Shown here: in pieces, positions 33,801 through 63,915 of the stretch
Numbering within the stretch: the stretch's first letter is position 1
Layout: each line of letters begins with the position of its first letter
DNA from: Sipunculus nudus
Lineage: Eukaryota > Annelida > Sipuncula > Golfingiida > Sipunculidae
Reading direction: 5' to 3'
Assembly: GCA_026874595.1 (NCBI GenBank)
Contig: CM049317.1
Location: 22,948,901 to 23,012,900, forward strand
DNA length: 64,000 nt
The notes under the pieces: generated by a model
The model's input: only the letters and a program-made list of their open reading frames with translations
What the model was told of the DNA's origin: nothing
Databases searched by the model: none
Translations under genes and position numbers: made by a program

Positions 33801-33801
33801 C

Positions 33802-34796: not shown

Positions 34797-34798
<2 letters not shown>

Positions 34799-34843
<45 letters not shown>
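34799..34843. repeat. (TA)n microsatellite
   Basis: About 45 bp of TA followed by a short GT run. Confidence 0.96.
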
Positions 34844-34852
<9 letters not shown>

Positions 34853-37550: not shown

Positions 37551-37693
37551 TATTGTATTTTGCATAACTATAATAATAACATTTCATGAAACAAGCTCAT
37601 TTCGTTCTTAGCTTAAAGAAACCGCTAAGCAGAACGTTTAGTTTATTATGTCCGAAGTTGGACACATAGGTTAATTCAGCGTGAGAAACGCTA

Positions 37694-37695
37694 CG

Positions 37696-37757
<62 letters not shown>
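37694..37757. repeat. (CT)n then (TA)n compound microsatellite
   Basis: A short CT run at 37694-37708 passes directly into about 48 bp of TA. Confidence 0.95.
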
Positions 37758-37761
<4 letters not shown>

Positions 37762-37779
37762 CGGAACCTAATATCAACA

Positions 37780-38533
37780 GATCACGTGAGCTTGATGAAC
37801 ATAAATTTGGTCTAGGGGATAAAAAAATCAGTTTCTGTAACACTAGGCAGCTGTGAAATGTCTAGGGGAATGAATAAGGAAGTCAGTGTTTTTTGTTAAC
37901 AAATAACTATAATTTATTCTTAAAACAACCCTAGCACCACAATACACCAAATCAATACAATTACACTGTATAACAGCGGTATAACAACAAATCAATACAA
38001 TCACACAATTAAATAAACAAAGTGCACAGTACCTGGATACCACCACTGTCACAACGATAAGTCCTTTTAAATGTATCCACACAAATCCTCTCGGGGAATA
38101 AAAGTCCGATGTGTATTTGTATGTAGTTACTAATAGTAGAATCCCTGAAATTACTGGATAATCAGACAAGTCCCACAAATTGACATAAACACGTCTGTGT
38201 CCGCTGGAAAATTCTATCCTCTCTCTCGGTTTAAAACACAGCCCCCTATTTATAACTTCTCACCCCAAGCCGAGAATTTTCCACTTCTCGAACAGTCTAA
38301 AGAATCCAACACAACACACAGTAAACCATCATTACAGGAATCTTCTAGAAAAACATCGCTGTTTCTCAACACATTAGGGTTCACACGTGATCTCAGCCAG
38401 GCGAGAAAGCCCCAAGCTAGCATGACAACGAGAGCCCAACCAGTATGGATTAAACTGAGAATGCAATAAGTGGCCAGACACGGGCGCTACTACACGAGTT
38501 ACGCCCGTGTCACACAATGAGCACCTGTAACAA
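37780..38533 (+). repeat. dispersed repeat C, copy 2
   Basis: Collinear with 9969-10735 over its full length and in the same orientation, from ACAGATCACGTGAG to ATGAGCACCTGTAACAAT. The 90-residue open frame inside is not kept in the other copy, so it is not a gene. Confidence 0.8.
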
Positions 38534-38657
38534 TATATATATATAAGAAAACCATTCACCCAGCATTTGGGATTAGTGTTGCTATGGGTACTGCAATATA
38601 TGTTGTGGAAGCCTTTGATTGCCTGGGAGACACTCACCGTTTTACTCTCTATAAAGC

Positions 38658-38663
38658 TATATA

Positions 38664-38727
<64 letters not shown>
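38658..38727. repeat. (TA)n microsatellite
   Basis: About 70 bp of TA with one phase slip. Confidence 0.96.
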
Positions 38728-38729
<2 letters not shown>

Positions 38730-38733
38730 CACG

Positions 38734-40560: not shown

Positions 40561-40574
40561 CAAGGCCACACGAT

Positions 40575-40710
40575 CCGAGTCCGAGTGCTAGTCCGAGTCC
40601 AGGCCACTCGAGTACAAGTTCAAGTCCGAGTCCTTGAGGCTAGAGTCAAATCCACCTTCCTCAAGCCCGGGTCCTTTGGAACCCGAGTCCAAGTCCATCC
40701 GAGTCCAATA
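40575..40710. repeat. degenerate (GAGTCC)n hexamer tract
   Basis: CGAGTCC and close variants recur about a dozen times, often 6 or 12 bp apart. The same word pattern occurs at 47460-47575 and 47828-47915. It gives a D/S/L-rich frame on the - strand that I do not take as coding. Confidence 0.75.
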
Positions 40711-41639
40711 CAAATATCCTACAAGAAGTTTCAAAATTAAATTCATATTTCTTTGGCTCAAGGTCATAAGCATCCTTTTATGTTTCCTGTTAGATATTTT
40801 GTACACATCCAAGAGCACAAAACATAAAAACACGGATTGATAACCAAACCTTTGTTGAACAGCTTGCACAAATACACAACATTTGTTTTTCTTGCTTTCT
40901 ACCGGGAACCGCTTAAACGTTGAAATTATATTAAGAGCATTCACAGCTTTTTTTTCCCGAACATAAAGGACTCCTCTTTATTTTGAGATAATTGCTTATT
41001 AGATGCTTTGAAAAACACCACATGGTTGTACTGGCATGGTTATTTCATTCTGGGAAGTGTCAGATTTACTTTTGGGAGTTTTCAGTTAACTTCCTGTCAA
41101 CAGCTTTGACTCATGCCACAGACACGTCATTTAAATTTAGCAGCACAAAGAATTAAATATAGTTCAGAAATGTTAACTAGGAACAGCTATAAAATGACCA
41201 ACTTCCTATGAAGATCATGTCACCCTTATTTAAGATGAAATTTTCATACCAGCGTGTTTTTATTAAATGGCTTGTGCAGTGACATTGATAATGTTTTCGT
41301 TTCATACAGTGTTGCAAGTTTAGTTAAGATAAAATATTTAAGCTGGTGTTCATTAAGTCATAAATAATAATAGCCCAAAAACCTAAAATTACACTTTAAT
41401 ATGCTGTAGCAAGATGTCATGAGAGGCAGGATTGTAAACATTAGTCGGCTGCTATCATTTCGAGATAATAATTTTTATAACTCGGCAATAAATACAAATT
41501 CAAACCGACAAAACCTCGTGTACTTTGAATCGCAAATATTTATTTGTTTATATGGGAGCCGTTTTTCTGTCTCCCCTGCTTTGCGAGTAAACACTGGCTC
41601 CCCCTTCCCGCCTATAGCTAATTGATATACCCGGCATAC

Positions 41640-42335
41640 AGTAAAGCATTACTAGGGCACTATCAATATACCGATATATCGATACATATCGATACGCTGC
41701 GTCGATACGGGTACCGATATGCGTTGCAAGCTGCATCGTCTTATCGAGGAAACACTGACTGCTAACAAATATTGATGCAACCCTGACTTAATTTATCGTT
41801 TAAAGATTTTTATATGCTTATGCTGTTTTATATTTATTAAGTTCGCCTTTAAGACTTAAATAAGATCTGCCATCTTTTCATTTGAGAAAAACCTTATCCA
41901 CAGAGCTTTTAATAATAAAATGGTTCACAAGGAAAAAGAAGGCTTTTTGTCAAAACGTATCGAGTTTCACTTTAAAGCAGCGTTTCCATGTGCGCGTATA
42001 TGCGTATGTGCGTATATGCGTGAAAAAAATAGGTGTGTTTCCATGTGCGCGTATATGCGTATATATTTGTACAGTGGATCAAGCAGGTCTTCCACAAAAA
42101 TATGGTGAAATGATCATTTTACCCTGAATCCCTGAGTTCACGCAGACCTTATGCGTGAAAATCGCTCCTGTGGCGATTTTAACGCATATACGCACATACG
42201 CATATACACTGACGGACACATGGAAACACCCCAGTTACACAATCATAAGAGCGATTTTTCACGCATATACGCATATTCGCGCACATGGAAACGCTGCTTT
42301 AGTGTTTCGCAATACGTATTGTACCTGTGCAGGCT
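41640..42335 (+). repeat. dispersed repeat E, copy 2, split by a nested MITE
   Basis: The left part (41640 to about 41973) matches 30285 onward: ATCAATATACCGATATATCG, GTCGATACGG, TTTAAGACTTAAATAAGATC. The right part (42300-42335) resumes with CGCAATACGTATTGTACCTG, as at 30677-30700. The material between is the separate MITE listed next. Confidence 0.75.
41975..42299. mobile_element. nested MITE with about 50-bp doubled inverted arms, TA flanks
   Basis: The left end AAGCAGCGTTTCCATGTGCG is the inverse of the right end CGCACATGGAAACGCTGCTT, and pairing continues through GTATATGCGTAT blocks for about 50 bp. A second, inner pair of arms (GTTTCCATGTGCGCGTATAT near 42038, inverse near 42181-42230) repeats the same motif. 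The element is 325 bp with TA on both sides (41973-41974 and 42300-42301), as expected for a Tc1/mariner-type target site. It interrupts dispersed repeat E, which proves it is a later insertion. Confidence 0.85.
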
Positions 42336-42426
42336 GACTGATGCAAAGCCCAAAGCATTTTCGGGATGTACAGTCCCAATTATGATAAACTGCCTACTCA
42401 TTTGTCCCATTACTTGATCAATATTT

Positions 42427-42945
42427 ATTAAAGGGGCCCAATCACCTAAAAAGCATGTTGAATTAACAAGAAAAATAGATCCCTCCCTTTCAAATAAAGC
42501 TGTACCTGTCAAAATATATTCTTCAAACCGCTTGCTTACTCCTTTAAATAAGTGTTAAAAACAGTGGACCGGGCGCGATCTCATGGGGCAAAATAAACGC
42601 AGCGTATGGGACCGTGTGCGTCGTGGAGCCACAACACGTGCCAATCATGATATGTCCTGACTGACTTGGCCCAAAAAGATAATAAATATTCCCGATTGCT
42701 AAAAGACCTCGTGTTTCGGCTCACAATCGGACCTCCGGTCAGGCGGTCTTCTAATTGTAAACAGACACACGTGGACTGTGTTTTATCAACATGCAGAGCA
42801 AATACAAAGGTGTTAAACAGCCGTATGCGAGTTACTGAGACTGTGTGCTGGGATGGTTTGGCTTGAAAATATTGTATAACGCAAAACTGAACTGATAGTG
42901 TGAAAGACCAGGCATAATATTGCTCCTGATTATGTCCTTTTAAGG
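42427..42945 (+). mobile_element. MITE-like element D, copy 2 (TTAA ends)
   Basis: It starts TTAAAGGGGCCCAATCACC and ends TGATTATGTCCTTTTAA, parallel to 25308-25800 throughout. It lies about 90 bp right of dispersed repeat E copy 2. Confidence 0.75.
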
Positions 42946-43294
42946 AAAAGAAGGTTATGTATACGTGGTTATGATGAATAATCTAATGACCTAAAATCCG
43001 AATGCGTGTATCTAATATCTATAGTTAACAAGAAGGCTCAAACTTATCAACCTATATACAGCTTTCGTTACGCTGTAATCGCTTTATTTCCTGCATCCTT
43101 GTTAATTAAGCTCCATGACTGGCCTCAACACATCTGGCGGTGTTGGTCACTTGGCCAAAGCAACAGGATCGTCTACAATTCGAGAATGTTCAGCTATCTG
43201 CGTCCTCCATTTTTGTATGGTGTACTAACTACACTCCTGTCGGTTCAACATATAAATGCCAAAACCACAGTCAGTAAGTCGCTATTCATATAAT

Positions 43295-43347
<53 letters not shown>
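43295..43347. repeat. (TA)n microsatellite
   Basis: About 53 bp of TA with small interruptions. Confidence 0.95.
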
Positions 43348-43352
<5 letters not shown>

Positions 43353-43372
43353 GTGTAACCCCATATATATAT

Positions 43373-43972
43373 ACAGTGGAACCCCACCTTGGGACCACCC
43401 CACAACTGCAACCACCCCAAAAATTACGACTACTTTTCTTTGTCAATAATTATGAAGAGATTTTGGTCCATTTTTGTCCTCAATTTTCTCTGAGCTACAC
43501 AACACATGCAGGGGTCTGACACAATCGGAAGATTAAGGTTTTTTTGTGCATATGAATAACCCCTGCCGTCAGTGACCGATTTAAGCATGTTTTGCCTAAC
43601 ATTTGACCCAGTAACTGGGCCGCTTGCATGTTCAGTAAATGTGAAAAGCATGTGAATCCTGATTTACGAAATGGAGAGGTCCAATCCAGGAGGATTAATA
43701 ACAAAACCTAATAAAAGGTCCAAAGGTCTTGAAAAGGGAGGGGGTGTCCGGGCCGCAATAATTAGTCTGAAACTATTAAAAAACCCTTGAGCCAAAATTC
43801 CTCATCTCCTGTAATACATCGCTTCGAATCCTTATAAAAATTAAAAATCAAAGTTACCGGGTTTATCAACTGGTACATAATACAGGTAATTTACAATTTC
43901 ACCATTACCACCACTCCGGATTTACGACCACTTTCGTCAGTCCTAAATGTGGTCGTAATTGTGGGGTTCAAC
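43373..43972. mobile_element. CAGT-type TIR element, copy 1 (about 0.6 kb)
   Basis: It starts at TA/CAGTGGAACCCCACCTTGGG and ends GGTCGTAATTGTGGGGTTCAACTA. The ends are inverted copies around GTTGAACCCCAC. CAGTxGAACC ends with TA flanks are typical of pogo-like Tc1/mariner MITEs (established knowledge of that group). A second partial end (CAGTGTAACCCC) lies at 43351. No transposase. Confidence 0.65.
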
Positions 43973-44234
43973 TATATACAGTCCGTCCCTTTAATTGAAT
44001 ATCGTATTTGTCAATCGGTTATATTCATTTAAGCGGGCTATTCAAATAAACCGGGTGTTAATCTTCAAGGTTGTAGCTTTCACTACAATACTAGGAATTG
44101 CAATCGAATGGCTTCCCTGTGTTTCTCGTATTATTCAGATGGTTCTGAATAATCTGCTTTGGAATTTTCCATTTAATTATGTTTCAATTGATTAGTTTAT
44201 ATATTTTATTTATTTATAATTTCTATACCTTCTA

Positions 44235-44765
44235 CGGAAAAAAAAAACTATGTGTATTCACCTATTTTTATTTATTATTGATAAAAAACCATCTCTCTGC
44301 CAGTTGCTGACAGCTTACCGATCACGTGAATATATCAAATATTGCCAAAGGTTAAAACGAGTCCTCTAGGATTTTGGTTTCACATAAAACCTTTATTTGT
44401 TCCAACTCAAGAAAAAGAGAATTACTGTGCATTCACCTGTTCGTGTATGTTATCTATAAAAAAGCGATGCTGCAAAATGGCTGACAGATAAAACATCACG
44501 TGAATGTGTCAAAGGTCACGAAGTTTAGCAAGATTCCTTAAAGATTTTGATTTATATAACACGTATTGTCTTCCATTTTAAATTTTTCTTTCTGCACGTT
44601 TACCTGTTCGTGTGTCGTCCTAAAAAACGACGTTTCTGGAAAAACTACATCCTTCCACCAGAGATTGTTTCTACTCAAAACCATTGTGAGTACGACTCTA
44701 CGCAGTGTGCATGGCAGGCTGCATTCCGCTCACGTGAATATGTCAAAGGTCAATAAGGTGAGAGG
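44235..44765 (+). repeat. three diverged tandem modules with CACGTG and AGGTCA-like sites
   Basis: Each module has TGxATTCACCTGTTCGTGT-like sequence, then a TCACGTGAAT box, then a TCAAAGGTCA-like box. CACGTG occurs at 44323, 44497 and 44731. The AAAGGTCA box is intact in modules 2 and 3 (44511 and 44746) and weakened in module 1. No exon is seen. It could be a decayed satellite or a multi-site regulatory element. Confidence 0.6.
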
Positions 44766-44909
44766 CCACATAAGTCCAGCATAATACAGATTCATACTTC
44801 GAATTAACTGTAAAAAATGAATCAATACGGTTACGGATTTTATAATGAATTATAAACATATTCACCGATTGACAGTACAGGTAATGCTCTCGAATAAAAG
44901 ACCATGTTT

Positions 44910-44968
44910 ATAATAATATATAGTATTTATATAGCGCCAAATTCTCCGATGGTCGGACTCACAGCGCA

Positions 44969-45005
<37 letters not shown>

Positions 45006-46100
45006 TTCATGGTAATCTACTCCCTTTGCCTGACCCAGAAATAAATGGATATTAATTACCAAAAGCTTGACGAAAGAGATACGTTTTTAAATTAGTTTTA
45101 AATGATACAAGAGTTGGAGATTTTCTAAGTGTAATAGGAAGTGAATTCCAAACTTTTGGGGCTATGAAACGGAAGGAACGTTCACCGATTTTCATATTAC
45201 ACTTTGGTACTTTAAGAAGATTTCCGCCAGCCGAGGGCAGCGTACGCAAAGGCCGATAGGTTTTTATTTTTTCAGTCAAATATGATGCAAGTGAGTCACC
45301 AAAATGGCGGTAACCAAAACCAGCAATTTTGTATTGAATACGGTACTTTAAGCCAATGGAGCTGTTTGAGCAGCGGGGTGACGTGGTCGGTCTTACGTTT
45401 CTTAAGAATGAGACGCACCGCATTATTCTGGACCATCTGTAGCCATGAGACTTGCTCTGCAGGTAACCCAGCAAGAACTGAATTACAATATTCCAGGCTA
45501 GATATTACTGTGGCGCAAATGAGCCGACAGCACGCATTGATAGAGAGGAAACGCCGGATTGAAGCTATACGGCGGAGCTCGAGAAAGGCCGCACGACATA
45601 TACTACTAATATAATCATGCATTGAAAGATCACGATCAATCTTAACACCTAGATACTTCACTGAATTTTGAAAAGGAACAGTGCAGCCCCCAATGCTAAT
45701 AGACTCACTGTCAGTCATCTTTAGAAGGGGTTTAGATCCGACAGGCATAATTTTAGTCTTGTCAGTATTCAATTTAAGTTTGTTGCTGGTCATCCATGAT
45801 AGTATATCCTCGATACAAGCTTGAATGCTTAACTGGACAGAGCTGAACTCACCTGGTTGACTACTTTTTGACAGTTCAGTGTCATCAGCATACTTATGAA
45901 AGGACAATCACGTGCAGATATTATGCGAGATAGGGGTTGTGAATATAAAGTGAACAATAAAGGTCCTAACACGGGAACCCCGCACAACAAAGTACATGGG
46001 TCTGATTTTCTGCCGTCGACAATAACAGCTTGGGAACGATTGGCGTATCCCTTGTTTATAATACAACCTACCAAGTGAAAGTTTGTCCGGGGAGCACGTG
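44910..46100 (-). mobile_element. 5'-truncated non-LTR retrotransposon (reverse transcriptase remnant)
   Basis: On the - strand the frames encode QAVIVDGRKSDP and GVPVLGPLLF (the QGS of the usual GVPQGSVLGP is lost). The catalytic YADDTEL, KLNTDKTKIM, GVKIDRDLSMHDYI and LEYCNSVLAGL follow, and after a frameshift near 45300 the tail FIAPKVWNSLP..KTYLFRQAF. This is ORF2 of a CR1/jockey-like LINE from the middle of the reverse transcriptase to the end. It has at least two frameshifts (near 45895 and 45300). The 3' end has a (GT)n run and GGCGCTATATAAATACT, as in the other LINE copy. Confidence 0.88.
44971..45002. repeat. (CA)n microsatellite in the LINE 3' UTR
   Basis: About 31 bp of CA, lying between the LINE stop codon and its 3' tail. 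Confidence 0.95.
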
Positions 46101-46149
46101 TAGAATTAACGCATCAATCACACATTTAATTTAGCATGCAATCAAGGAA

Positions 46150-46310
46150 GGAAACCATTTCAGCCGATGGCGCGAGTCATATCAAAGGCTAATTAGAAGA
46201 AAGAGTGGTCAGTGGTCCATAAGCTAACCCTTCAAACCAGTTGGGCGAGCAATATCAAAGGCTAAATAGCGCACCGGGCGGTCAGTAGTTCGTGAGACAG
46301 TTGTAAGCAC
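46150..46310 (+). repeat. two tandem units of about 73 bp
   Basis: The ATATCAAAGGCTAA..TAG block recurs 73 bp apart (46181 and 46254), each followed by a GTGGTCAGTGGTCC- or GCGGTCAGTAGTTC-type stretch. Diverged, noncoding. Confidence 0.6.
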
Positions 46311-46574
46311 ATGAATATCCGGGATCGCCGTGCATGATGGACGAATTTTACTGCACAATTACCCGATATATACATTTATCAGATATTCATATAAACGGAG
46401 AATTTTATTAAGAAAACATAGAAAAAGGTTTTGGATTTCATTATTTTTATACAATTAAATGGGATATACAATTATACGTTATAGCATGTACAATTAACTA
46501 GGACCGACTATGTATATATATATATATATATACCGCAACTGCATGTCATTGGTGTGTAATTAACCGCACAGCCG

Positions 46575-46735
46575 GGTATCACTCGTTTCTGAGTGATAAC
46601 CGGCTGTGGGGAACAGCCTTCTCATTAAAGCTATATAGCGCTCACCCTGGGGTTGGCTGAGATTTTAACTCGCGACATTCCACCTTTGAGTCATGTGCTC
46701 TACCCTTGAGCCACAGAAGCCGGGACCTCCGCCAC
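46575..46735 (-). mobile_element. tRNA-derived SINE (family 2)
   Basis: On the - strand it reads GTCCCGGCTTCTGTGGCTCAAG, then GGTAGAGCAC (A box), CGCGAGTTAAAATCTC (B box) and GGGTGAGCGCTATATAGC (body). It then carries a hairpin, CCGGTTATCACTC..GAGTGATACCCGG. It shares its head with the copy in the lamin-tail-like gene's intron. Confidence 0.72.
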
Positions 46736-47224
46736 TGTTGAGAAATCTCCTGAATGTACACACTTTAAATATTGGTGGAACTGTTGGATGATTCTACTTG
46801 TCCATACAAGCAAACTCCTTATTTTATAAAGAACATTCAGCTGAAACACAGTAATATTAATCTGTCATACAAATTGTGATAATACTGAGCCACAGACTAA
46901 AAAATTCAGAATATTGAAACATCCACACAATTTATGTCCTTATACAAGGCGAATCATTAGCAATACGTAAATTAGGTAACACAATCCATGATTTAAAAAA
47001 AAAACAATCTTTACAAATCACACATAATTGGTCTGAAACCAAACGGCGTGAACATTGTATTCTGTCAGGTATCCTGATTCAAATAACATGTGTTAGACGC
47101 TACAACTTGAAAATTCTCACAGGAAATTGCCCTATGAGGATACATTGAATGCATGGTTTTCCAGAAGATTAAAAATAAACTTTATTTATTTTATCTGAAT
47201 TGTTCAACTAGTAATAATGACTAA

Positions 47225-47405
47225 TACGAGGCACTCTCCATGGTTCGGATGTTAGCGCTCCGTAGTCGGTGAGGGAAACCAGAGGACCCGACCGACCTTG
47301 GAGGGGCAACCAAAACCCACTCTTATAGCCACGCCGGGAATCGAACCCGGGTCTCTAGCGGACAAAACAGGCGTTTTACTACTCAGATGTCCAGGTCCCT
47401 GAGGT
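47225..47405 (-). mobile_element. tRNA-derived SINE (family 1)
   Basis: On the - strand: GAGTAGTAAAACGCCTG (A-box side), GGGTTCGATTCCCGG (perfect B box), GGCGTGGCTATAAGAGTGGG, then a body with CCTCTGGTTTCCCTCACCG. It is the best-preserved copy of the family seen at 1005-1165. Confidence 0.75.
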
Positions 47406-47459
47406 AGATTCTCCATTGTACTTCGAGTCTATCCCCACGTCATCCTTTTTAGGCCAATG

Positions 47460-47575
47460 TGCCGTACCTCTGAGACACGAGTCCGAGTCGAAGTTCGAGT
47501 CCGAGTTGAGTTTCGAATCGAATTGCACCTCCTCCTAGTCCGAGCCACCAGGAATCCGACTCCAAATCCGTACAC
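47460..47575. repeat. degenerate (GAGTCC)n hexamer tract
   Basis: CGAGTCCGAGT-type words recur at 47479-47540, with related AATCCGACTCC words to 47575. It matches the tract at 40575-40710. Confidence 0.65.
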
Positions 47576-47827
47576 ACAAATCCATGTTAAAATGTATTTA
47601 AAATGAAAATTTAAGTTTATCATGTATGTGTATTTTATTGCTAGTTTACGCATTCTTTTTACTTGAATGCTTGGTCACATTTAGCTCCCGATGCAGAGCT
47701 CGAGCTTGACTTATTATACAAATCTTAATGTTCTGTCAGTTGTTCGCACGTGTATAAATGTCAAAAGCAGGTGTCAGGCTTTTTTTAACTAAACCCGAGA
47801 TGGTCTTTGCCTGATTTCTTGTGCCCT

Positions 47828-47915
47828 TAACTCCCGAGTTCGAGGACAATTTCGAGTGGAGAACCTTCGAGTCCAAGCCCTGGACGGAGTCCATACAAAT
47901 TGGACTCAAATTCCT
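47828..47915. repeat. degenerate (GAGTCC)n hexamer tract, third copy
   Basis: CCGAGTTCGAGG, TTCGAGTCCAAG and GGAGTCCATACAAATTGGAC follow each other. The CCATACAAA block next to the hexamers also occurs in the form CCAATACAAAT in the 40.6 kb tract, so the flanks are shared as well. Confidence 0.55.
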
Positions 47916-48262
47916 CATCACTGCGGGTTACGAGAAAGAATTTTAAAGTGTTGCTTAAAAAAGTTTTTACAAAGAAATTATGACACAGTCATATAAACCA
48001 CATTTACTATTTGTGCAAAGTTCTTATTAACATGAAAGGACTTTTTGCAGATGTCTGCAACGTAACGAGCAGAAATATTTTAGATGAAAAATAAATTGAA
48101 TCGTTTAATGGAACTAACAAACACATCAGCCCGTATGCTCCGCCCCTGTTTAAATTGCCAACGGTAACTTGATTGGTTACTCGCAACTGCTCTGCTCATG
48201 ATTATTCATGGTTTGAATATGCGATTAAGGTCACATAGAGTTCATGATTAGGTCGATTTCAG

Positions 48263-51200
48263 GAAAGGCCCAGCTAGAGCAAGCTGTAATGAGTTGTAAA
48301 GCAAGAGGGACCGGTCTGCTGACGGATAAGTCGATGCTGGAAGCTGCACTTCAAGACATCCACAAAGTGTGGCTGCCAATCAAACGGAAAAAGCTACCAA
48401 ACTGGGCTCACCTGGATGGTTCAGTTTTACAGTCCAGAGGTAAATATTGTTTCAACAGAGACTGATGCACACTCTTATTATTCATATAAAATCTTGGACT
48501 CTATTTTGTCCGGACAATTAAAAGAGAAACAATCATGTTTTAAACCAAAATTAAAGGATCAAGCCTATATAATTGGTAAATATCAATAACTAATTCTCAA
48601 TCAGTCTCTATCAGAAAAGAGACTTTCATATGATCCCTGTATATTTATACAACAGAATGACGTCACAGGAACACTCTACACTGAAAATGATTTCGTCTGC
48701 AAAATTTTCGATACTGGTGATTTATTTATAAATATTTTATCAATTTCCAGGGAATAAAGACAGGACAAACACTTTTATAATCACTTTCTCTTTATGATCT
48801 TTCTAAATCTGTTCCTATTATGTAACTTCGTTTAAGAAGTGATGAGAAGCAGTAATGCAGAGAAGGGCTGTGCTTACTACCAGCTCAATCGTCTGTATGC
48901 AGCCAAGTGCTCGTCCGGTTTTGAAGTGGCCTGTCAAGGGGGTGAGTACTGTATTTCTACTGATGACGATATTTTCCCCTTAGTTCACTACTTGACCAAA
49001 TAAAATTTTTACAAATTAATTAAATTTTCTTATTAAATTTGGTTACGTTAACATCCTAGGAATAATCTTAAAAATGTTTAAGTAATCGTTATCATTATCA
49101 TATGTTTAACATTCAAAGAAGTCTATACCATTGTGACATAATGTTATTTCTTTTGCCTGGTTAAGGCCATAGCGTTGGCTTTGTTCTAGGACTCAGCTGT
49201 GAACTTGGCCTGTAAACCGTGATACTATATGCCAAATAACATGGGAAATCTTTATTAGGACATATGTTTGTGGGCACAGAATCTAGTTATAATTTAAATG
49301 TCAGACAAATTTTCCATGACAAAACAGAGGCAAATATCACCTGGGTTTTGTTGTTCTTTTTGTGAATAAATTCAGGTAATCTTAACGGTCCCGCGGTCAC
49401 GACTTCGTGGTACCGAGCGAGACAATTATGTGAAGAAAGAGGAAAGCAAATGGCCAGATCTTCCGGTGACGTCATTGAGGGCCGTTCACGTCAATGGGTT
49501 GGGGTTCGTCGTGAGGTGTGGCTTTTCCAAAACGGTAACATTTCAAGTGGTGAAACTTTAAAGTCTGTTTCATCCTGTCTTGTCCACCTGTTTTTTTTTT
49601 TGTTTGTGTTTTTTTTTTTTGCTATAAAAATTTTTATTAAATACATTTCAATTAACTTGATTTTAATGCGAGGCAGGAGATTAAAGGGCCTAATTTTCAA
49701 CAAGATAAATAATTAGCTACCTTGTATTTTGATTAAGAAATAGAGATTTTTAGTTGTTTTTTCTTAAATATGAGAAATCAGTCGACATTTTACAATATAT
49801 CAGCCCAACTTATGGCAGTCAAGGTCATTGGTCATGTAAAAATAGCCTCAATTGACAGCTGCTGATTTGATTGTGTCAAGTATATATAAAAAAATATAAC
49901 TAGCTAAGACAAAGATGGCTACTCATGAAGGGGGCATATGATCTGTCAGATTATTGTAAAAAGTCCAAACAGTTATTAAACACAAACATTATTGAAAAAT
50001 ATAAACTTTTTTTAAAATGATCTCCAAAAATAGGTTGACACAGGTTGATGGAACGATGTAAAGTGATTTCCCTCAAGTATAATGCTAATTAAACGGTTGT
50101 CTTAATCTAAGTTAGAATTCCATATACTAAAATTATTAAATAACAGTGTCAATTTGTCTATAACTTTATTTTTTTCACATAGTTTTTTCCATTTTTATTT
50201 TCTTTACCACACTTACCAAGGCTCGGAAGTCACTAAAACCAGCTGGGCGCGTGACCACCCTGACAAGGGAAATTGTACCGTATTGGTTCTAAAGACAAAC
50301 CAGTGGGAGTCAGAAAGTTGTACAGGACGTCACTACTACGGATGTGACGTCATGCCAGGTATTGTGACGTCATTTATCTACAGTAAATGAAATGAAAAGT
50401 AGTTAATTAAATGAAAACCAAACACCCAATGCCGGGTTATTACATCCAGAATTTAATTAGTTGTTTTATATATCTTAATAGTACCAAACCCCTTCACCAG
50501 GCGTCGCTGTCAATGGCAATTCAAATTCGCAAACATGTACAAACACATCTATACAAACACCCCAACATTACCTTGCATCGATCATATACTAAACAATAGA
50601 TTTATACAGGTGACCACATGTCTCTTTTACAATGTTTCGATCTCAGAGCAAACGACAAATGCAAAGGAGAGAAGAAGCATCTATGTAAAAGGTAAAAAAT
50701 TCAATTTTGTCAAAAAGAAAGATTGACAAACCGCACTAATATTAAAGACATTGCCTGTCAGACAATTTATAGCCCTGCTAATATCTGAATATTACTTTCG
50801 TTTTTATTTTATTTATAGTTTCATAGTATGTAAAGGACATATCTGTTCCACATGTATTTTCCATTCTGTAATATAATGATAGATATATGTCTGCTATTGG
50901 AAAATATTGTTATTAAAATATATATGTTATCATCTGATAGAATGATTGCACTATTCAAAGTACATATATAATCCCACGATGTTTTTTAAATTTATCTATC
51001 TTAGTTTCGCGCATGTTTTACTTCTTTTTGAATAACACCTTTAAATATGGATAGGAAAAAACCCGTAAGTCCATACATGACAAAGGTAAATACATTCTAT
51101 CTACACTATGTATTTCCTTTATACAATTCTACGTCACGCATCAAAAGAAGAGGGAACCACGGTGTTCAAAGAAGGTAAGACATTTGTAAAGAGGAATTAT

Positions 51201-53862
51201 GTATATATATATATATATATATATCCATTGATCTGATATGTCAGCACATCTTTTTGCAACTTTAGTTTTGGTATATATTTTTTTATGTGTACAGATGTAT
51301 TATTAACAACATCAGAGATAAATCAAGAACTGGAAATCTGCAGTTTAATGAAAGCAAGCCTCCGCCATGGGGGGTACTTCCAAATCTGTGTTTGCATTCA
51401 TTTATTCGGCCCATATTACCAGGTTGCTTCATGCATAAGTGACTGTACATTTGTGAATATTGCTTGATGACGTTCCTAAATCCGAATCATGGACCACATC
51501 CACACCTAAATCAGTTCGTCATTCACGTATTCCTGAAATGCCCTGAAAATTTCATGAGATTCCGTTCATGATTGCGCGAGTTAAGTAAGGGTCAACCCCC
51601 ATACACACACGAACGGGGAAGAACGCATAACCTCCTGACGAAGGCAAAAAAAATGCATGTTTTGAGTACAATGTTTTTACAAACTTAGTCGTTTCAATTG
51701 TCCTAGCAACTTGGAAATAATGAAATAAAGTGGGCCTACAAACTACATGTACAAACTAATACGGCCATGCAATTTTAACGATCTAGTTAATGCAGCCACA
51801 GAGAGGTACATAGAAACAAGTGGCGATTACGTTGCTGACTTTACCACGACCAATATGGGTAGGTCATCTACTTCCTTTTACCACGCTATTCCATATTCAA
51901 TAAACAATACTAGAAATCATCTCTCTGAAGCATGTCGTATTAAAAATAGCAATTTTAATTAGCTTTAACATTCTTTTTCTTGAACCACTCTTCCCTTGAG
52001 ACAGGTTTGCTTGATGTTTGGCGAATCACCGTTTCCTCGGCCGCTGTAGGGTGCCTCCTTTTACTCCTGAGCGGAATCGCTGTTGCCTTCAAATGCAGAA
52101 AGAACTCCGACGCAGCGTGAGTAAAATTAAAATACAGTAGAACCCCGGATTTCCGTATTTTTTTCCGAAAATTAGTTTTTTCGTCATTTAAAGTAAGAAA
52201 CCGAAAGTTACCGCTGTTAAATGCTTCGCTGTTTTTGAAATAAAAATATTGTTAACGAGGATTACAAACGATCTGATGAGATACTGCATGTGTGCCAGGA
52301 TTAACATATTAATGTTACGCCTAAAACGATATGCCCAACGTGCACATCCACGTACTACCAGTATACTTCTTGAAAAATGTCTGACTTCGTATATCCGTCA
52401 CATCTATTATCCGAACAAGTTTTATGTCCCTAGTCCATTCGGATATTCGAGTTTCTACTGTACCTATTTATTACTGGAACCATATTTACTGAGACATTTT
52501 AACTTCGAGTTGGTACAAAATTCCAATCTCCTTTGAAAGCTGATTTAAGCAAAGAATAAATAAAAATCGGGACGGTTTATTTTACAATTAAGTCTCTATT
52601 ATGCTTTCACATTTGGCACTGAGCTTAACTGCCAACAATATAGAATAAATGACTGTTACATGATCAGAAGGAGAATAATTCGAATATCAGAACCTGCTCA
52701 CTATAAACAGGTTAACACTTACTGGAGGTGCCAACAAAGAAAGGTTCGACTGTGTAATCTCTTTTTCCAAAGCTTGTTGTAATTTATCTTTGACAGGGGC
52801 GTCAATACGGGGGGGGGGGTAGTGTTTACCCCGCACTTTTTAGAAAGAGAGAATGTTCAATGTAATATTGAGATATTGAGAGAATAATACATATATTATG
52901 GAAAAAGAATACATAGATAATTATAATAAGAGACTTTGGTTCCATTCCTGAATATACTCTGGTTTAGAATTAACACATGCTTGAAACATCTGTCTGTTTA
53001 TAAAAAAAAATTGTCCCAACTTTTATTATTCTCCCAGCGCCAGGCGTGAGTCGCCCCCCCCCCCCCCCCCCCCCCACCCCTGAAGATAAATTGACGCCAC
53101 TGATGGATGCCCGTGTTCACTGGAAAGTTCAGGACAGGCATATTTTTAGTCATACGAGGTCTTCATAAGGCCTGAGTGAAGTGTACTTTTTATTGAAACG
53201 GGTCGATAAATTTGAAATCGAACATTTGATTACTGGACTCCGATCCCTCTGTGGGAAGATACAATGTAAAAAAAGACAACATCTCGACATTCGAAAGATA
53301 ACGTGTATACTTGAAATACATGGCTTGTGTGGATAATAAGATGCTCAAGGCTATTTATCATGTATCACAATTCAACATATAGTGGAACCCCGACTTACGG
53401 GCACCTATGTACCAAGGGCGCCTCCGAAATGTACTAAGGGATTTCCCGAAATTTATAACCTCCCTACCAAGGGCACCTTGGTTTTATTGTATGCTTAGAC
53501 CTTCAGCACATAATGTTAAAATCCCGCGGTCATAATTTTATCTGCTGAGTCACAAGTAAACATAGTTTAAATATAATTTCGTAATAATTAAATAGTATAT
53601 TACAGGAAAATAAGAGAACTGGATAAAAATACTGCAACTTGTTATGTTTTTCTAAGAGCGGTACAGGATATGAGAAAAGGGAGGCAGGCCTGCCTAAGGT
53701 AAATCACCGAAAAAAGAGTTGTTGCACAGAACGGAAAGATGTCGTTGAACTAAAGAGTAAAAAAAGAATTAAATTTGCGTCAATTTCTGATTTTTCATCA
53801 CAGACAGAATAAAGATGTATTTCATTTATATATATATATATATATATATACACAACATGTTG

Positions 53863-53906
<44 letters not shown>

Positions 53907-54285
53907 CGCATTTCCTTACTCATAACGATAAGGGCATTTTCCACAAACAAAATGCGAAATGTCCTGTTATTTTTCTAACGGGATCATTAATGCAGGAAAT
54001 AAATGTTACATATCTTTCTTGACAAAAAAAAGTTTAAAAGAGTTCTGCTAAATAAAGGAGTAAAAAAGAGTAATAACCATCATTTTCATAATATCCTCAA
54101 AAAAAGAGTTACTCTTTTAAAAAAGAGAATGATTTGGCAGGTCTCAGAGGGGTCAGACTCAGCAATATGATGTAAGTAAACAATAGTGCCTGGAGTGGTA
54201 GGAGAATTTATCATAACTCATGCATGTAGAAGAATCGGAATGAAAACGAAGAAACCCACAAAATCGGGTGCTCATTTAAATGTTG

Positions 54286-54318
<33 letters not shown>

Positions 54319-54874
54319 TCCCATTTTTAGGAAGACATTAAGGAGGGGCGGGCTCACTCTGCACACCCCCCCCCACCCACATCATCTAAATCCTCCCCCG
54401 TTTTGCCGCACACGTCACTACCTATCATCATACAGTGGAACCTCTCCTTCCGGCCCCTGTATACTAAAGGCTCCTCCTATTTACGGACAGTCCCTTTAAA
54501 ATAAGTTCCGAAATCTATGAAGTCCCTACGAGGGCACTTCTCTATTGCTGGCAAAACGTCGGGTCCCGTTAATGTCCTTATTTTAAAGGTTCTACTGTAT
54601 ATATTTATTCTTTTTCTTTAATAGTAAAACGCAGCAAGTAAGAGAGGAGGGAGACGGAGCCGCCAGCTACGAGACTCTGACAACAATGCAAGATAGCAGG
54701 GCCAGTGCACCTACAAATCCGGCAGAAAATGCTATTTATGAAGAACTTAAGCTTAAAGACCCCTACATCAACATACCGTGGGACCAACTCGAGGTACCTT
54801 CGAATTACGTCATGAAAATCCCCCGGAAAGAGCGTAGACCGGTCCCTTGTCCTGTGAACTCTCAGACGCATTAA
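48263..54874 (+). CDS. C-type-lectin-like transmembrane receptor with cytoplasmic tyrosine motifs (5' incomplete)
   Basis: Exons: 48263-48439, 48837-48941, 49376-49534, 50221-50358, 50610-50691, 51787-51858, 52005-52116 and 54625-54874 (TAA). Introns are GT-AG and mostly phase 1. The first two exons form one C-type-lectin-like fold (VMSCKARG, GCAYY, AAKCSS, ACQG: four cysteines). The next two form a second (SWYRARQLCEERG, QWVGV, NCTVL, ESCTG, YGCD). The canonical EPN/QPD and WND calcium-sugar motifs are absent, so calcium-dependent sugar binding is unlikely. Exon 50610 adds a Cys-rich piece (DKCKGEKKHLCK). Exon 52005 is a transmembrane segment (VGCLLLLLSGIAVAF, then basic CRK). The last exon is cytoplasmic with YETL, YEEL, YINI and PSNYVM. 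YINI fits a YxN adaptor-SH2 site. The signal-peptide exon is not found, and the join from 50691 (phase 2) to 51787 (phase 1) needs another exon or donor. It is presumably a surface recognition receptor that signals through tyrosine phosphorylation. Confidence 0.78.
49676..50060 (+). repeat. dispersed repeat F, copy 1 (intronic)
   Basis: It runs from GATTAAAGGGCCTAATTTTC to GGTTGACACAGGTTGATGG. The copy at 58905-59350 shares ATATGAGAAATCAG, GTCATTGGTCA, ACAAAGATGGCTACTCAT and AATCTGTCAGAT-type blocks in the same order and orientation. It lies in the intron between the second and third thirds of the receptor's lectin-like domains. Confidence 0.8.
51147..51180 (+). other. candidate small exon in the receptor stem region
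   Basis: An acceptor-like AAAAG is followed by about 27 bp (EEGTTVFKE in one frame) and a good donor GGTAAGA. If real it would be a micro-exon, but its phases do not by themselves join 50691 to 51787. Listed as a candidate only. Confidence 0.25.
51199..51223. repeat. short (TA)n microsatellite in a receptor intron
   Basis: About 25 bp of TA. Confidence 0.9.
52135..52460. mobile_element. CAGT-type MITE, copy 2 (intronic, TA flanks)
   Basis: The left end CAGTAGAACCCCGGATTTCCG and right end CGGATATTCGAGTTTCTACTG are inverted repeats, and TA stands on both sides (52133-52134, 52461-52462). The element is 326 bp and has no transposase. It begins about 16 bp after the transmembrane exon's donor site. 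Ends and target site fit pogo-like Tc1/mariner MITEs. Confidence 0.85.
52794..53102. mobile_element. nonautonomous TIR element (MITE), copy 2 (intronic)
   Basis: The ends CAGGGGCGTCAATACGGGGG and AAATTGACGCCACTG are inverted over 12-13 bases. The interior matches 14577-15020. It holds a C-run of about 20 near 53055-53075, opposite to the G-run near the left end. Confidence 0.75.
53376..53500 (+). mobile_element. single end of a CAGT-type MITE
   Basis: ATAGTGGAACCCCGACTTACGG resembles the left ends at 43373 and 54433, and the CCAAGGGCACC words that follow resemble the interior of 54433-54597. No matching right end was found nearby, so it is probably truncated. Confidence 0.5.
53826..53904. 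repeat. two (TA)n arrays separated by 15 bp
   Basis: TA runs at about 53826-53850 and 53866-53904 flank a CACAACATGTTGAAA spacer that contains the palindrome CAACATGTTG. Confidence 0.9.
54288..54310. repeat. short (TA)n microsatellite
   Basis: About 23 bp of TA followed by a T-run. Confidence 0.9.
54433..54597. mobile_element. CAGT-type MITE, copy 3 (intronic, TA flanks)
   Basis: CAGTGGAACCTCTCCTTCCG at the left and AAGGTTCTACTG at the right are inverted, with TA at 54431-54432 and 54598-54599. The element is 165 bp. It ends only 27 bp before the last receptor exon, so it may provide part of that exon's branch and pyrimidine region. Confidence 0.82.
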
Positions 54875-57800
54875 GAGAGCCAGTCTAAAAGGAAACTGTT
54901 CTAATCTGAATGGGAAAGGTGCCTTATTTTGATGTATGTAGGTTATATTTTTTGTAAATATATTTTGTATTTTTGTTATATACAATGCTTAAAAACGTGT
55001 TTGTGCAGCAAAATAGATGATATGCCAGATGAATATTTGATAGATTAATGTAATATTATAAATTTTGAATTGACAGTTGGAATTATATATGAAAGCAAAA
55101 GCGACATATAGGGAGCCGAGGCCTGTTTCACCAACAGTAACTGATTTACACAAGTCCAGGTTATCCTCCGAGTTCTGATGTACGGTTCAATGATTAACTA
55201 TATATATAATACGCAGTTTTTTTCTAGACAAAGGTTTACCTGCTTCCGTTCTGATTTGGACTTCGATATTCGGGACACGTATCGGCGGTGCCCTCTTGTC
55301 TAATCTTTCTGGATAAAGCCATTTTAAGCTGTATTATAATAATAATTTTAATATGCCCCGAACAGAGGCCCCTTTAGATCCTCCACGCCTGTTACGCCTG
55401 TTACGTTTTCCAGGATGCACCTTTGGGATTTTCATGCATTTCGGGCTCACTGGCCGCAGAGCGTTTTGGCAAATCGCGGTCACAGGTCCATTCCAAGCCC
55501 TAAAGTTCGTAGGGAGTTGGGCTTGGGGTTGGTGGGGATGGATGCACACATATTTGTTTAAGATTCACAAACTCCAGGCACTTTTTAACATAAACATATA
55601 TTACCAGTATATCTTGAAATGGATAGGAATTTTATTAACAAAATATAAAATCTATAGTCCTTAAAACCTCCAACAGAAACTCAGTCATGTGTTCAAGTGT
55701 ACACTTTTTATGTATAAACATTCCCACGCTTCAGTGACCAGATTTCACCTGGCGAGTAGCAGACCAAATGAATACGAATGGGCGACTTTTACATGGGGGA
55801 CAAAGGAATTGTTCTATTGTCATAATGGCATATAAACAAACATTATGCATGTTCATTCTGATTTCCTCCAAAATTTTTCGTTCATACGGTTTTAGCTAAA
55901 TCTCTACAATTTTTTTCTAGTAAAACCCGGAAATATTAATATGCGTTAATTTTACTTAAGACAAAGCAACGTAAGAAGGCTGAAGTTATTTCTTTGAAAC
56001 GGAATTGCAGCCAGAGATGTAAAAGTGTCGTTTATCTGGGAGCATCATCAGTTTCCCATCAACCTGAAGACAATCAACAAAGCTCGGGACAAACATCAAA
56101 TACCGTAGGAGTGTATTTGCCTGAGCCTGTCAAACTACATCGGCTGCATTTAGTTGCATTTCGCATTCAAGAGGCTTCTAGGACATATATGTGTTTGTTT
56201 TCATACCCAAGACTTCCACCAGCTGACAACTAAAAACATCTTTTTCGTAATGTTGTTTGAGCCTCAATTCATACAAATTATCTTTCATTAAATTTCACTT
56301 TTCTAAATACAGTCATATAATTTTTTCAAACTTTTTTCACAGTATAGATTATATATATATATATGTGTGTGTGTGTATGTGTGTGTGTGTTCGCCATCGC
56401 TCCGGCAAAGAATATTTTGTGGCCATGTTGCTTATTCGGAAGAAAATTCGTAATCGAAATTTATCTACTTCTTTGTTTGATTTCTTGAATAGTATAATTT
56501 GCCATTATTCGCTGACATTTTTAGAAGGGGGGGGGTTCCTTGGGAATCCTGGCACAAGTGGTCTTTATATCATGAACAACAGTCCCTGCGAAAAGCACAG
56601 GATAAATATGTGCGACATTCAGTCCACACAAACTCATTACAAAACTGTTAATCATTAAGAACCGTGGGTTTTCTACGGGTGCCTCTGGTTCTATTATATA
56701 ACCAAGTGTATAACAACTCGAAACCTGATACAATCATCACTCTGTATTTTTCACAAAAACAGGATTTATCACTTGTGTATACATACATAAGGATATATCT
56801 GTCTCGTGTCGGGTTATATCAATAACGCTTTGTATTGTACAAAATAAAAACAGTTTGAATGGTAACATGAATATTGTTATCAGAAGAAATTAAATTATAG
56901 ACTTCATCACGGTAAAAAGTACATCGCGCCTGCAAGCAGATTGGTTTTGTGACTGAGAAAATCTCAGAGTTTCCAGGTAACACACATCTCACTTTTTAGT
57001 CACTTTAAAAAGCGAATCAGGGGGTCAGATTATATATTTTTTCCTCATATTTTAGGGGAATAAATTGCGCAATTTTTATCATAGTGATAGTGAGATTCTT
57101 GCGTCATTTAGATATTTACAGTACTTTCATGTTTCCCCAATAATATTTTTAATATGATGCATCTCATATTTAGACAGTTTAGGATATAGTTATGGCCAGT
57201 TGCCTCATTGAACTATCTTCAGTGTTCGTCTACATTATAGTACATCGTCAAATGGTTAGAAATTAGGGTAATTTTGTTCAAATTATATAAAATATATGTT
57301 ATGAAAGTCGAAAAAAATTAGTTTTCCATAATAAAAATATAAACTCCATATCATGTGGCCGGATGTCAGAAAATTATTATAATTATTATCATAAATTGTG
57401 AAAAAATTATAGGTTTTTAACTTTGTTATGAGGCGGAGAGGATTTGGGCCTTAATTCAGTAACCAAAAAAGTGATGGTGGAAGGTTAGAAGAACAGCCTG
57501 TACCTATGTTATTTGGATAATAATTAAAAAAAAAACCCATTTGTGGACAAATTTATAAGTTGCTTTCATTTTAGCAAATAATTGATAGAGAAATGTATGT
57601 TTTCCAACGTCTGTAAGCCAAATAATTGTTTATAAACCAGAAAATTATAAATAAAAAAGAATAAGAAACATGAATGCGACTTCATTAGCTTTTCTTTTTG
57701 TTTTAAATTAAAAGACATTTTAAAATAAAGAACGAAATGACCAAATGAACCTTGGTTCCTGCAATCTTTAGCCTAATGAGAATAAAGTTTACATCATAAT

Positions 57801-60891: not shown

Positions 60892-61820
60892 TCATGCCCT
60901 AATCTGGACGTCCAGACGACACACAATCTTCCGGTCTCTGTTTGAAGACCATATGAACTGATTTGGCGGGAAAAATTCGTACTCGTTACCTAGCAACGTG
61001 GGGATTGATTCACGTCCATATGCATACACGATTCTCGCTCTCTTCCAAGCCGGGTAAGACGATAAGTCAATAGCCTGACCTCGAGGTATGGGGGTACATC
61101 GGGTAGAACTGAAAAAAAAGAGAAACATTTAAGTTGCTGAGGACTATTTTTTTTAAGAAAAATCAGAGTATAAATTTTTTTGTTAAAGTACAACTAAGCA
61201 AATATCATACCGGGCTAAAGCTGTAAATTCTATATTGGTTTATTGTTTGTGAGCCACATAAGCTGGTATTGTTCCAAGGCAAATTACATAAAAATGGGCG
61301 TTTAGTTTTGAAGTTTGAAAATTGAGACAAGAAGCCCCTGCCGTCCCACATTGCCCAACAGGAAGAGGTTCGATTTAAGTAGAAACGACCTCAGGCGAAA
61401 GAGTGTAATATCTTACCTCCTTGAGGTGTGTGCTCCGTTTGACAAATAAGCAATTAATGCTCTGTGTTTGAATTCCGGCGTTATGAGAGGTGCGTTGACG
61501 GCAATATAGAGGGACTTCGTGCTCCTGTTTATGAAAACTCCCGACGCTGATCGCCAGTTTCCCTTCCTCCGCACCAGTCCATCCAGGTTTACGTTGACGT
61601 CATCGGCACGAATCCCTATTCTGCCGGTGGCCCACAGGCGCACTTCCAGCTGATTGCCTAAAATTTTGATTTTAATTTAGTTTGATTTAAGCATTGTGGA
61701 CACAGCATTGATGCCATCATCTGCATTCTTTTCATCAGGTTTCATCTCCACATTGAATTAGATTTTTTAAAATTAAAATCGGGTGATAAAGATTAAAGAT
61801 GAACAATAGAAATTCATTAG

Positions 61821-61870
<50 letters not shown>

Positions 61871-63915
61871 CAAATTCTGTCCCATAATCGATCATTTAGC
61901 GTCAACGATGAACTTTTCTTATTCAGGTAAAATATAATTGAAATTACAAAGTAAAAATATATTAAACGTTCTGTTTTCATTTCAGCAATGTCTGTATATG
62001 TTTCTCTGTTTGAACATTTTAGATGTTTGTGGGTTTGCCTATGACGTTACAATAAAAATAAATCTCCTCCCGACACCTGATGGAGGAATTTGGTACTAAG
62101 AAAGTCATGTGGTGCTGACGGAGGTATGTGGCCTCTTATTCTCGATTAGTTGTATAAGGTATTTGGTTTATTTGTTTATGTTTTTTTTATAAGTGAACTC
62201 ACATTTGTTTTCCCTTCGAAGGGTGCTGTTCGCGGTATAGTCAAAGGAAAATGGATTCTTGATGGAATCGAAATCACATCGGCTAATACTGCCGTGGTCC
62301 GGCATGCGAGTCACGTGACGTGCCAGACTGCCCATGTACCTGTTGAAATGGAGGACGTCATTGAGATAGTTGGTGCCTGGTTTCCCATAATACACCACGT
62401 CAATAAGGTCTGCGTCAACATCTGCAGTTACTTCCGTATATTCAAAGGACTCTGTAAGTAACAAAAAATTAATATAAATATACTAGTAAGACAAGAGAAT
62501 GTTTTAAGTGTGCACATAGCAACAATAATAATAATAATAATAATAAATATATTCACATATTTATATTATATATTATATATATATTATATAAATTATATAA
62601 TATATATATAATATTGTATTAGTATAACAGGTTAATTGTATCTAAATTCTTCCTTCCTGATTGTATTTACTGAGTTGAATTTAGCACTACTGTACCACTT
62701 AGCTATTATTCTTACAGTATATACAGGGCGAATCTCAATTCACAATTATACACACAAGTATATTTAATTTAAAGTTCGAGGTTTTACTGGCTGGTCAACA
62801 CTAACAGCAGTGTCTACCATAACAATTATAGGTGTATATTGTTTCAGGATATATTCACAAATAGCCCGGAAAATGATAGATCGCCCTCCCCCCCCACCCC
62901 CACCCCCACCCCCCACACACACACAAACAGACACCCCGGGTGGTCCTCAGGAATCTTTTTGCACAGGTTAGCAAGTCTATCCCCTACTGCCTTAATATTA
63001 TAAAATATCTCATACTAGCCAGTTTTAATCTTGTATTACTTGGTCAGACACTCACAGGATGGTATTTACAGCTGTCCATCAACTGCGGTAACCCCTGAGG
63101 TGAGAACAATACACAATGCACCAGCATACACATGTTGGAACCCTCTTTTCTTGTCACGTATCCCTGACCATTTGCGTGATAAAGTTATTGCCCTGATAGA
63201 TACAACCCAATTCTGGCCAGCAAATTAGCATTGTATTTTCAAACTTAAACATAGGCACAAGTCTATGAAAAGGACCATGGAAGAATTCATAATTTTAGAC
63301 TCATATTTAAATGTATGCTTTTCACGCAGCGGATATACACTACATTTATTCCAGATCTCCTCTCGTGTAATCGTTGCTTTGTATACCAAACTTATCTGGG
63401 CTGGGACACTAGGGTGCGCACAGAGCAAAGAAATCTGATCAGACTATCGCGTTGTATCACACTGCGCATCAAGCTCCAACTTTCAAACATGCGACGCCCG
63501 CTCTAGTTGGTCTGATTCTGGGCCCTGTATCGGGGAGGGTTTTATCAGACCAACAAGAGCGGGTGTATGGTATGCAATACAAAAAGTTGAATACACAATG
63601 CTATACCAATCTAATTGATCTGATTACAATTCTTTGCTCTGTGCTCACCCTGGTGTTCAAACCCAGAAAACATTTCAATACAAAGCAGCGGTTACACGAG
63701 ATCTGGGACCGCTAAGGCGTAAAGCCGCTGCGTATGGAGCGTAATATAAATGGGCTACTAAGTGACCATGTACTTTACAATATGACATATGTAATATAAC
63801 TGCTGTACTTGCGGTGGGGGAGCCGTAGTTGTGCTCCCTGTACAAGGCTACAGCAAATCCATCTTCATGGAACTCAAACCTGCCCATCTTCATCAAACCC
63901 CGCAACGACGCATAC
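60892..63915 (-). CDS. secreted lamin-tail-domain-like protein, paralogue; exons 2-5, 5' end beyond the window
   Basis: Exons on the - strand: 63809-63915, 62203-62451, 61417-61657 and 60892-61108 (TGA). Intron phases 1, 1 and 2 and an acceptor of phase 2 at 63915 are identical to those of 18004-22603. Shared blocks include FAVxxY in exon 2, ADLIDVVYYG and KNPFSF in exon 3, VRLWATGRIGI and ALIAYLSNGAHT in exon 4, and TRC and VCR in exon 5. Exon 1 (signal peptide and start of the lamin-tail domain) must lie right of 64000. All four exons are open and all splice sites are intact, so the copy looks functional. Exon 4 lacks the VKC and SSC cysteines of the other copy, and exon 3 has new ones. Function unknown; presumably secreted like its paralogue. 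Confidence 0.86.
61824..61866. repeat. (CT)n microsatellite in an intron of the paralogue
   Basis: About 43 bp of pure CT in the intron between exons 3 and 4 (GA-rich in the transcript). Confidence 0.96.
62520..62550. repeat. (AAT)n microsatellite
   Basis: About nine AAT units in the intron between exons 2 and 3 of the paralogue. Confidence 0.9.
63323..63732. repeat. large inverted repeat (foldback) in intron 2 of the paralogue
   Basis: The left arm 63323-63516 and right arm 63544-63732 are inverted copies, with a 27-base loop. Matching landmarks are CACGCAGCGG with CCGCTGCG, CCAGATCTC with AGATCTGG, GCTTTGTAT with ATACAAAGC, GCACAGAGCAAAGAA with TTCTTTGCTCTGTGC, and CCGCTCTAGTTGGTCTGAT with ATCAGACCAACAAGAGCGG. 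Similarity is good but not perfect. Arms may extend weakly to about 63260 and 63790. No open frame; it may be a foldback transposon. Confidence 0.85.

Follow-up and report, generated by a model that had tools for sequence, protein, structure and literature searches.

The vertebrate receptors NKp80 and CLEC-2 signal through hemi-immunoreceptor tyrosine-based activation motifs, or hemITAMs (PMC3819593), and among invertebrates the oyster proteins CgCLec-HTM and CgCLec-TM1 have been described as membrane C-type lectins with a hemITAM, acting via Syk and ERK to IL-17 or TNF (PMC13027682; CgCLec-HTM also in PMC12842671); here and below, statements with a citation reflect the available parts of the papers named. 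CgCLec-HTM has one C-type-lectin-like domain (CTLD) with QPS/WHD and one hemITAM, and binds lipopolysaccharide and bacteria (PMC12842671, PMC13027682). In bivalves, C-type lectins are already known to have expanded greatly (PMC10140915). Here we describe a gene at positions 48263-54874 of a window of 64,000 nucleotides from the sipunculan Sipunculus nudus (assembly GCA_026874595.1, contig CM049317.1, positions 22,948,901 to 23,012,900, forward strand). We read it as a type I receptor with two CTLDs whose calcium/sugar site has been lost, with a non-sugar ligand and a tyrosine tail that would dock SH2 proteins, and as a family relative of paired-CTLD genes in the same genome; the chances of this reading as a whole seem to us slightly better than even. 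Like CgCLec-HTM as that protein is presented in the available text, it combines an outside CTLD, a C-terminal membrane span and a tyrosine motif in the tail of an invertebrate protein, whereas the oyster receptor has one CTLD and one hemITAM and the Sipunculus gene has three YxxL/I motifs and a pair of CTLDs, both with degenerate sites. If the reading is true, tyrosine-tail signalling by non-sugar-binding lectin-like receptors, best known so far in this direct form from vertebrate natural killer (NK) and platelet receptors, gains a second, invertebrate form with unusual motif spacing.

The original prediction, made from the letters of the window, had proposed a type I receptor with two CTLDs. 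The exon order, the Pfam Lectin_C and profile matches and the membrane span bear out this layout, and both of its end coordinates were exact, exon A starting at 48263 and the stop codon ending at 54874. Eight exons were assigned on the + strand, with AG before and GT after every inner end (Table 1). The chain A-B-C-D-F-membrane-tail makes a single open frame up to the stop codon and would be joined by splicing. The G+C content of the exons is 0.46-0.54 (0.39 in exon E) versus 0.28-0.36 in the introns. Codon use was scored with a model of 1,315 codons taken from CTLD exons of relatives and from a kinase in the window, which superseded an earlier, weak test based on 683 training codons; because it was partly built on the relatives' CTLD exons, it is not independent of CTLD sequence. 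In all eight exons the used frame outscored the other two forward frames, and in seven it was the best of all six, the exception being the membrane exon, where two reverse-strand frames score higher. The tail exon, which is not CTLD, had the top coding score of the region 50359-56000 (18.5; runner-up 6.7).

Both predicted four-cysteine CTLDs are present, one built from a cysteine in exon A and three in exon B, the other from a cysteine in exon C and three in exon D, with the core motifs VWLPI and QWVGV, respectively. Pfam Lectin_C matched the joined exons A-E in two stretches (E 1.5e-6; 29.3 bits against 22.6). The best solved-structure matches of both domains are NK-type CTLDs: NKG2-A (E 6.1e-6) and KLRF1, i.e., NKp80 (E 6.7e-4), for CTLD1 (exons A and B), and CLEC-2 (CLEC1B; E 0.0022) for CTLD2. 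The CTLDs of these three receptors are known for protein or other non-classical ligands. NKG2-A, the partner of CD94, is a type II protein with one CTLD and immunoreceptor tyrosine-based inhibition motifs (ITIMs). CLEC-2 and NKp80 share with the Sipunculus gene the NK-type CTLD and a YxxL in their own tail; unlike it, they are type II proteins with one CTLD and one YxxL that lies near the N terminus after acidic residues.

That the lectin folds lack EPN/QPD and WND had also been claimed. This holds for CTLD1, which has neither motif, and not for CTLD2, where HPD stands at the EPN place and W-E-S at the WND place in a weak alignment to the mannose-binding protein 1hup (E 0.081), so that its site is degenerate rather than absent. 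Neither domain carries the EPN or QPD plus WND of site 2 that marks a calcium-dependent sugar-binding C-type lectin. In the last CTLD half of 13 loci that were readable by eye and taken as family members (L032-L036, L038, L040-L045, L047), the W is kept in every case and is never followed by ND. Both CTLDs have thus probably lost sugar binding. The available text of PMC12842671 tables HPD as a variant motif of one carbohydrate recognition domain of the bivalve lectin ScCTL-1, and because of this known variant CTLD2 may still bind sugar weakly. Since the canonical calcium/sugar site is lost, the ligand is most likely a protein or another non-sugar molecule.

The kinship of the gene was approached from both directions. 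Searching the genome with its ectodomain produced 33 matches (E up to 1), five of which were the gene itself and 27 of which lay at 0.016-0.96, leaving L007 as the closest relative by E-value (1.3e-5); therefore the genome appears to hold no close copy, and no clear further copies were seen within the window. Several of the 16 places that were read (L032-L047) contain genes with a two-exon CTLD1, a two-exon CTLD2 and then a membrane segment. Profiles made from relatives only were compared with the 1,225 open reading frames (ORFs) of the window, and each ranked the corresponding exon first: the profile of CTLD1 N-terminal halves (5 sequences) found exon A at E 3.3e-8 (second rank 0.56), that of CTLD2 N-terminal halves (8) found exon C at 3e-11 (second rank 0.061, exon A itself), and that of CTLD2 C-terminal halves (7) found exon D at 5e-7 (second rank 0.48). 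The comparison covered exons A, C and D. These CTLD exons thus appear homologous by position to those of the paired-CTLD genes and follow the same exon scheme, which places the gene with them. A query with L047, selected by visual inspection of its CTLD1 core (WLPLRRKRLPTW against WLPIKRKKLPNW), brought up 817 first-look candidates, of which 150 were scored as exon matches; 95 of the 150 are on the window's contig (C12, 78.6 Mb of a 1,427 Mb genome), spread over 71 places separated by more than 10 kb. The number 150 counts CTLD exons and not receptors, because several share one gene, most are unread and only 150 were scored. Judged by these comparisons, the gene most likely belongs, as a divergent relative, with the very numerous paired-CTLD genes of this genome, a kinship supported by the profile test and the exon order rather than by any strong pairwise match. 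Outside the animal, pattern searches of viral contigs with the tail and exon C, and of bacterial and archaeal genomes with exon A, gave 4, 11 and 120 matches, and none was confirmed as a relative. Two further loci, L024 (C5:86.46 Mb) and L027 (C11:0.58 Mb), hold single-frame two-CTLD ORFs of 441 residues with a hydrophobic C-terminal end and are possibly intronless, lipid-anchored relatives.

The predicted transmembrane exon was recovered as the segment ITVSSAAVGCLLLLLSGIAVA (mean hydropathy 2.2) followed by KCRK. Beyond the membrane the tail extends for 91 residues with four tyrosines, and all the motifs named in the original prediction are there: YETL, YEEL and YINI, at 24, 47 and 56 residues from the membrane, and NYVM, which is not a YxxM site because its M stands at +2. 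Three YxxL/I among four tyrosines were reached in 0.15% of 200,000 shuffles (P 0.0015), the motif having been picked after being seen. An ITAM consists of two YxxL spaced 6-8 residues, an ITIM has L, V, I or S preceding YxxL, and the hemITAM consensus is DGYxxL with acidic residues just upstream (available text of PMC3819593). The gaps of the tail, 19 residues between YETL and YEEL and 5 between YEEL and YINI, agree with those originally reported and lie outside the ITAM range. In an ITIM the L/V/I/S place is two residues before the tyrosine, where the three motifs have A, A and D; the earlier verdict that the tail is neither a standard ITAM nor an ITIM thus stands. As for a strict hemITAM, EEGDGAASYETL has an acidic stretch that is not directly before the tyrosine, DGY is absent, and the motifs number three, not one. 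The tail is best described as "hemITAM-like", a label for which the oyster receptors would offer a precedent. The tail matched no solved structure, and elsewhere in the genome (1.43 Gb, 153 contigs; E up to 10) it was not found, both first-look candidates being the gene itself.

We hypothesize that ligand binding would cluster the receptor and that Src-family kinases would then phosphorylate YETL and YEEL, the latter being close to the Src SH2 optimum YEEI. The phosphorylated pair could recruit a tandem-SH2 kinase of the Syk type, which would bridge two receptors in the manner known from hemITAM receptors, while YINI, which fits the Grb2 site YxN, could dock Grb2. Both the phosphorylation and the signalling partners are inferred from the tail motifs. 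The main rivals of such a signalling receptor are endocytosis through AP-2 and decay of the gene. If the former applied, YETL, YEEL and YINI would be YxxPhi sorting signals, a pattern that all three fit at their respective distances from the membrane, and the protein would be an endocytic or scavenger receptor and not a signalling one, as many CTLD receptors are endocytic. However, the acidic residues near the tyrosines and the YxN site suit SH2 docking better, and one tail could serve both roles. Moreover, signalling CTLD receptors with tyrosine tails exist in the oyster, according to the available text of PMC13027682 and PMC12842671. We therefore consider purely endocytic use possible, though unlikely.

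Besides the fit to YxxPhi, several observations weigh against the proposed signalling receptor. As read from its letters, the tail fits none of the ITAM, ITIM and strict hemITAM definitions, and for most of the relatives no secure tail came out of automatic searches. The stem exon F has a weak coding score (1.4), and exon E would break the reading frame if included. None of the 150 scored matches obtained with L047 is the gene itself, the nearest being 1.87 Mb away, and in the opposite direction the query with the gene picked up L047 at no better than E 0.27. More canonical CTLD exons exist elsewhere in the genome, with QPN at L015 and EPN plus W-D-D at L017, two loci at which no paired genes were seen and which are outside the count of 13. 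Finally, no firm signal-peptide exon was found upstream of exon A: successively looser scans from 38000, 34000 and 30000 to 48262 gave none, two and six candidates, none persuasive. The candidate listed in Table 1 is the only one on the + strand of the window under a stricter rule, with one on the - strand as background, and one of five places in 36000-48262 under a looser, relative-guided rule; its coding score is -9.6 versus -5.9 to 0.6 for the signal-like exons of four relatives. A signal-peptide-like phase-1 stretch occurs in 8 of 11 relatives scanned, five of them convincing by eye (L032, L033, L035, L036, L040), and is absent from the scans of L034, L041 and L047.

Some of these points would also suit a gene that descends from a paired-CTLD receptor and is incomplete or in decay. 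No strong signal-peptide exon was found upstream, whereas in L032, L033, L035 and L040 a signal-like exon precedes CTLD1 by 0.5-0.9 kb; exon E does not keep the phase and is low in G+C; no close copy was found in the genome, and the nearest scored relative exon is far off. Against decay stand the single open frame from exon A to the stop codon with its GT-AG junctions, the codon use of the eight exons and the high score of the tail, and we regard it as improbable. That two adjoining genes are involved, one giving the CTLD exons and the other the membrane and tail exons, is very improbable, since the phases agree through D-F-membrane-tail and a same-strand membrane segment after CTLD2 was flagged in L032, L033, L034, L036, L040, L041, L047, L050 and L052 (in the remaining loci read it was not securely found), although a 2.5 kb intron precedes the tail and exon F is weak.

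Table 1. Exons assigned to the paired-CTLD gene and the upstream signal-peptide candidate (window positions)
Feature	Position	Strand	Phase	Content	Support
Signal-peptide exon candidate, weak	43186-43273	+	1, in-frame with exon A	MFSYLRPPFLYGVLTTLLSVQHINAKTTV, donor GTAAGT	
Exon A	48263-48439	+	1-1	CTLD1 N-terminal half (first Cys, VWLPIKRKKLPNW)	relatives' profile E 3.3e-8; NKG2-A match
Exon B	48837-48941	+	1-1	CTLD1 C-terminal half (Cys 2, 3, 4)	used frame has top coding score of six
Exon C	49376-49534	+	1-1	CTLD2 N-terminal half (SWYRARQLC ... QWVGVRREVW)	relatives' profile E 3e-11
Exon D	50221-50358	+	1-1	CTLD2 C-terminal half; HPD, W-E-S	relatives' profile E 5e-7; 1hup alignment
Exon E	50610-50691	+	1 in, 2 out	half of a third CTLD (C-x8-C-x7-C)	
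Exon F	51796-51858	+	1-1	short stem ATERYIETSGDYVADFTTTNMG	weak coding score, 1.4
Membrane exon	52005-52116	+	1-2	21-residue span, then KCRK	
Last exon	54625-54874	+	2 to stop	cytoplasmic tail: YETL, YEEL, YINI, NYVM	coding score 18.5

Among the relatives, inner parts of another kind were encountered. In L050 (G000:C12:20726000-20733700, minus strand) the next exon after the membrane segment matches Pfam ZU5 (E 1.3e-4, 22.7 bits versus a cut-off of 21). The exon at the matching place of L052 has no Pfam match and shares 24% identity over 94 columns with the ZU5 exon of L050 (E 7e-6). At E up to 0.01 the genome holds 17 matches to the ZU5-type exon, every one of them on C12, and 11 of the 17 have a CTLD exon (from the set of 150 scored matches) on the same strand within 10 kb upstream, leaving six without; uniform random placement, repeated 2,000 times and taking no account of clustering, gave a mean of 0.08 and a maximum of 2. 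The reverse order, with the CTLD downstream, was not seen in any of the 17. One match (C12:20822322-20822738) and the final CTLD exon of L047 are 1.5 kb apart. Because of this arrangement, several relatives look like CTLD-CTLD-membrane-ZU5 receptors, while the gene studied here ends in a tyrosine tail; no ZU5-type match lies closer to it than 2.18 Mb, although a very divergent one could be missed. The ZU5-bearing genes, i.e., L050, L047 by position and L052 by similarity, share with it the split-CTLD scheme (for L050 and L052, as seen in CTLD2) and the membrane span and differ in having a ZU5-type domain inside and no visible YxxL/I tail.

We infer that the tyrosine tail may stand, by exchange, where the relatives have the ZU5-type exon. 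Tentatively, the paired-CTLD ectodomain might have multiplied into a very large, partly clustered family with exchangeable inner ends (ZU5-type domain or three-YxxL/I tail), forming an invertebrate counterpart of the vertebrate NK-receptor clusters, a wider proposal that we find plausible enough to state and are inclined to doubt. The relatives provide a natural comparison, in which the same kind of outer part is placed on a tyrosine tail or on a ZU5-type domain and the signals given by the inner parts could be tested. No description of a CTLD-membrane-ZU5 receptor or of the gene studied here was among the literature matches listed; in the available text of PMC8260672, a paper that also contains the term C-type lectin, ZU5 is named together with NLRs. 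At L037 (C16:47.81 Mb) there are possible tyrosine tail exons at 5953-6058 and 7489-7760 (YVPV, NPDYMYV; YSEI), which are unconfirmed and were not used as evidence. At L051 neither a membrane nor a tail exon was found.

Exon E is a half-CTLD exon that the original prediction had overlooked. Its donor leaves phase 2 and therefore allows no in-frame join to the phase-1 stem exon F, so it would be a relic, a skipped exon or an exon requiring an unseen partner. By eye, no first half of a third CTLD was seen between exons D and E. A micro-exon at 51148-51174 (EEGTTVFKE), which fits the phase between D and F, was rejected: nothing independent supports it, and a different frame of the same stretch has a higher score. 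A reverse-transcriptase fragment of a retroelement (45302-45907, - strand; RVT_1 E 3.7e-6, just under the cut-off) lies between the candidate signal exon and exon A.

Further features were noted elsewhere in the window. A protein kinase domain is located at 27363-28604 on the - strand (Pfam Pkinase E 6.8e-36), with tandemly repeated DNA at 26619-27825, and a BIR (inhibitor of apoptosis) domain match above the Pfam cut-off is at 31468-31776 on the same strand (E 1.9e-5). Two genes at 17962-21787 (+) and 61413-62482 (-) are alike by eye; the former has a signal-peptide-like start and matches the Lamin Tail Domain weakly (E 7.1e-5, short of the Pfam cut-off).

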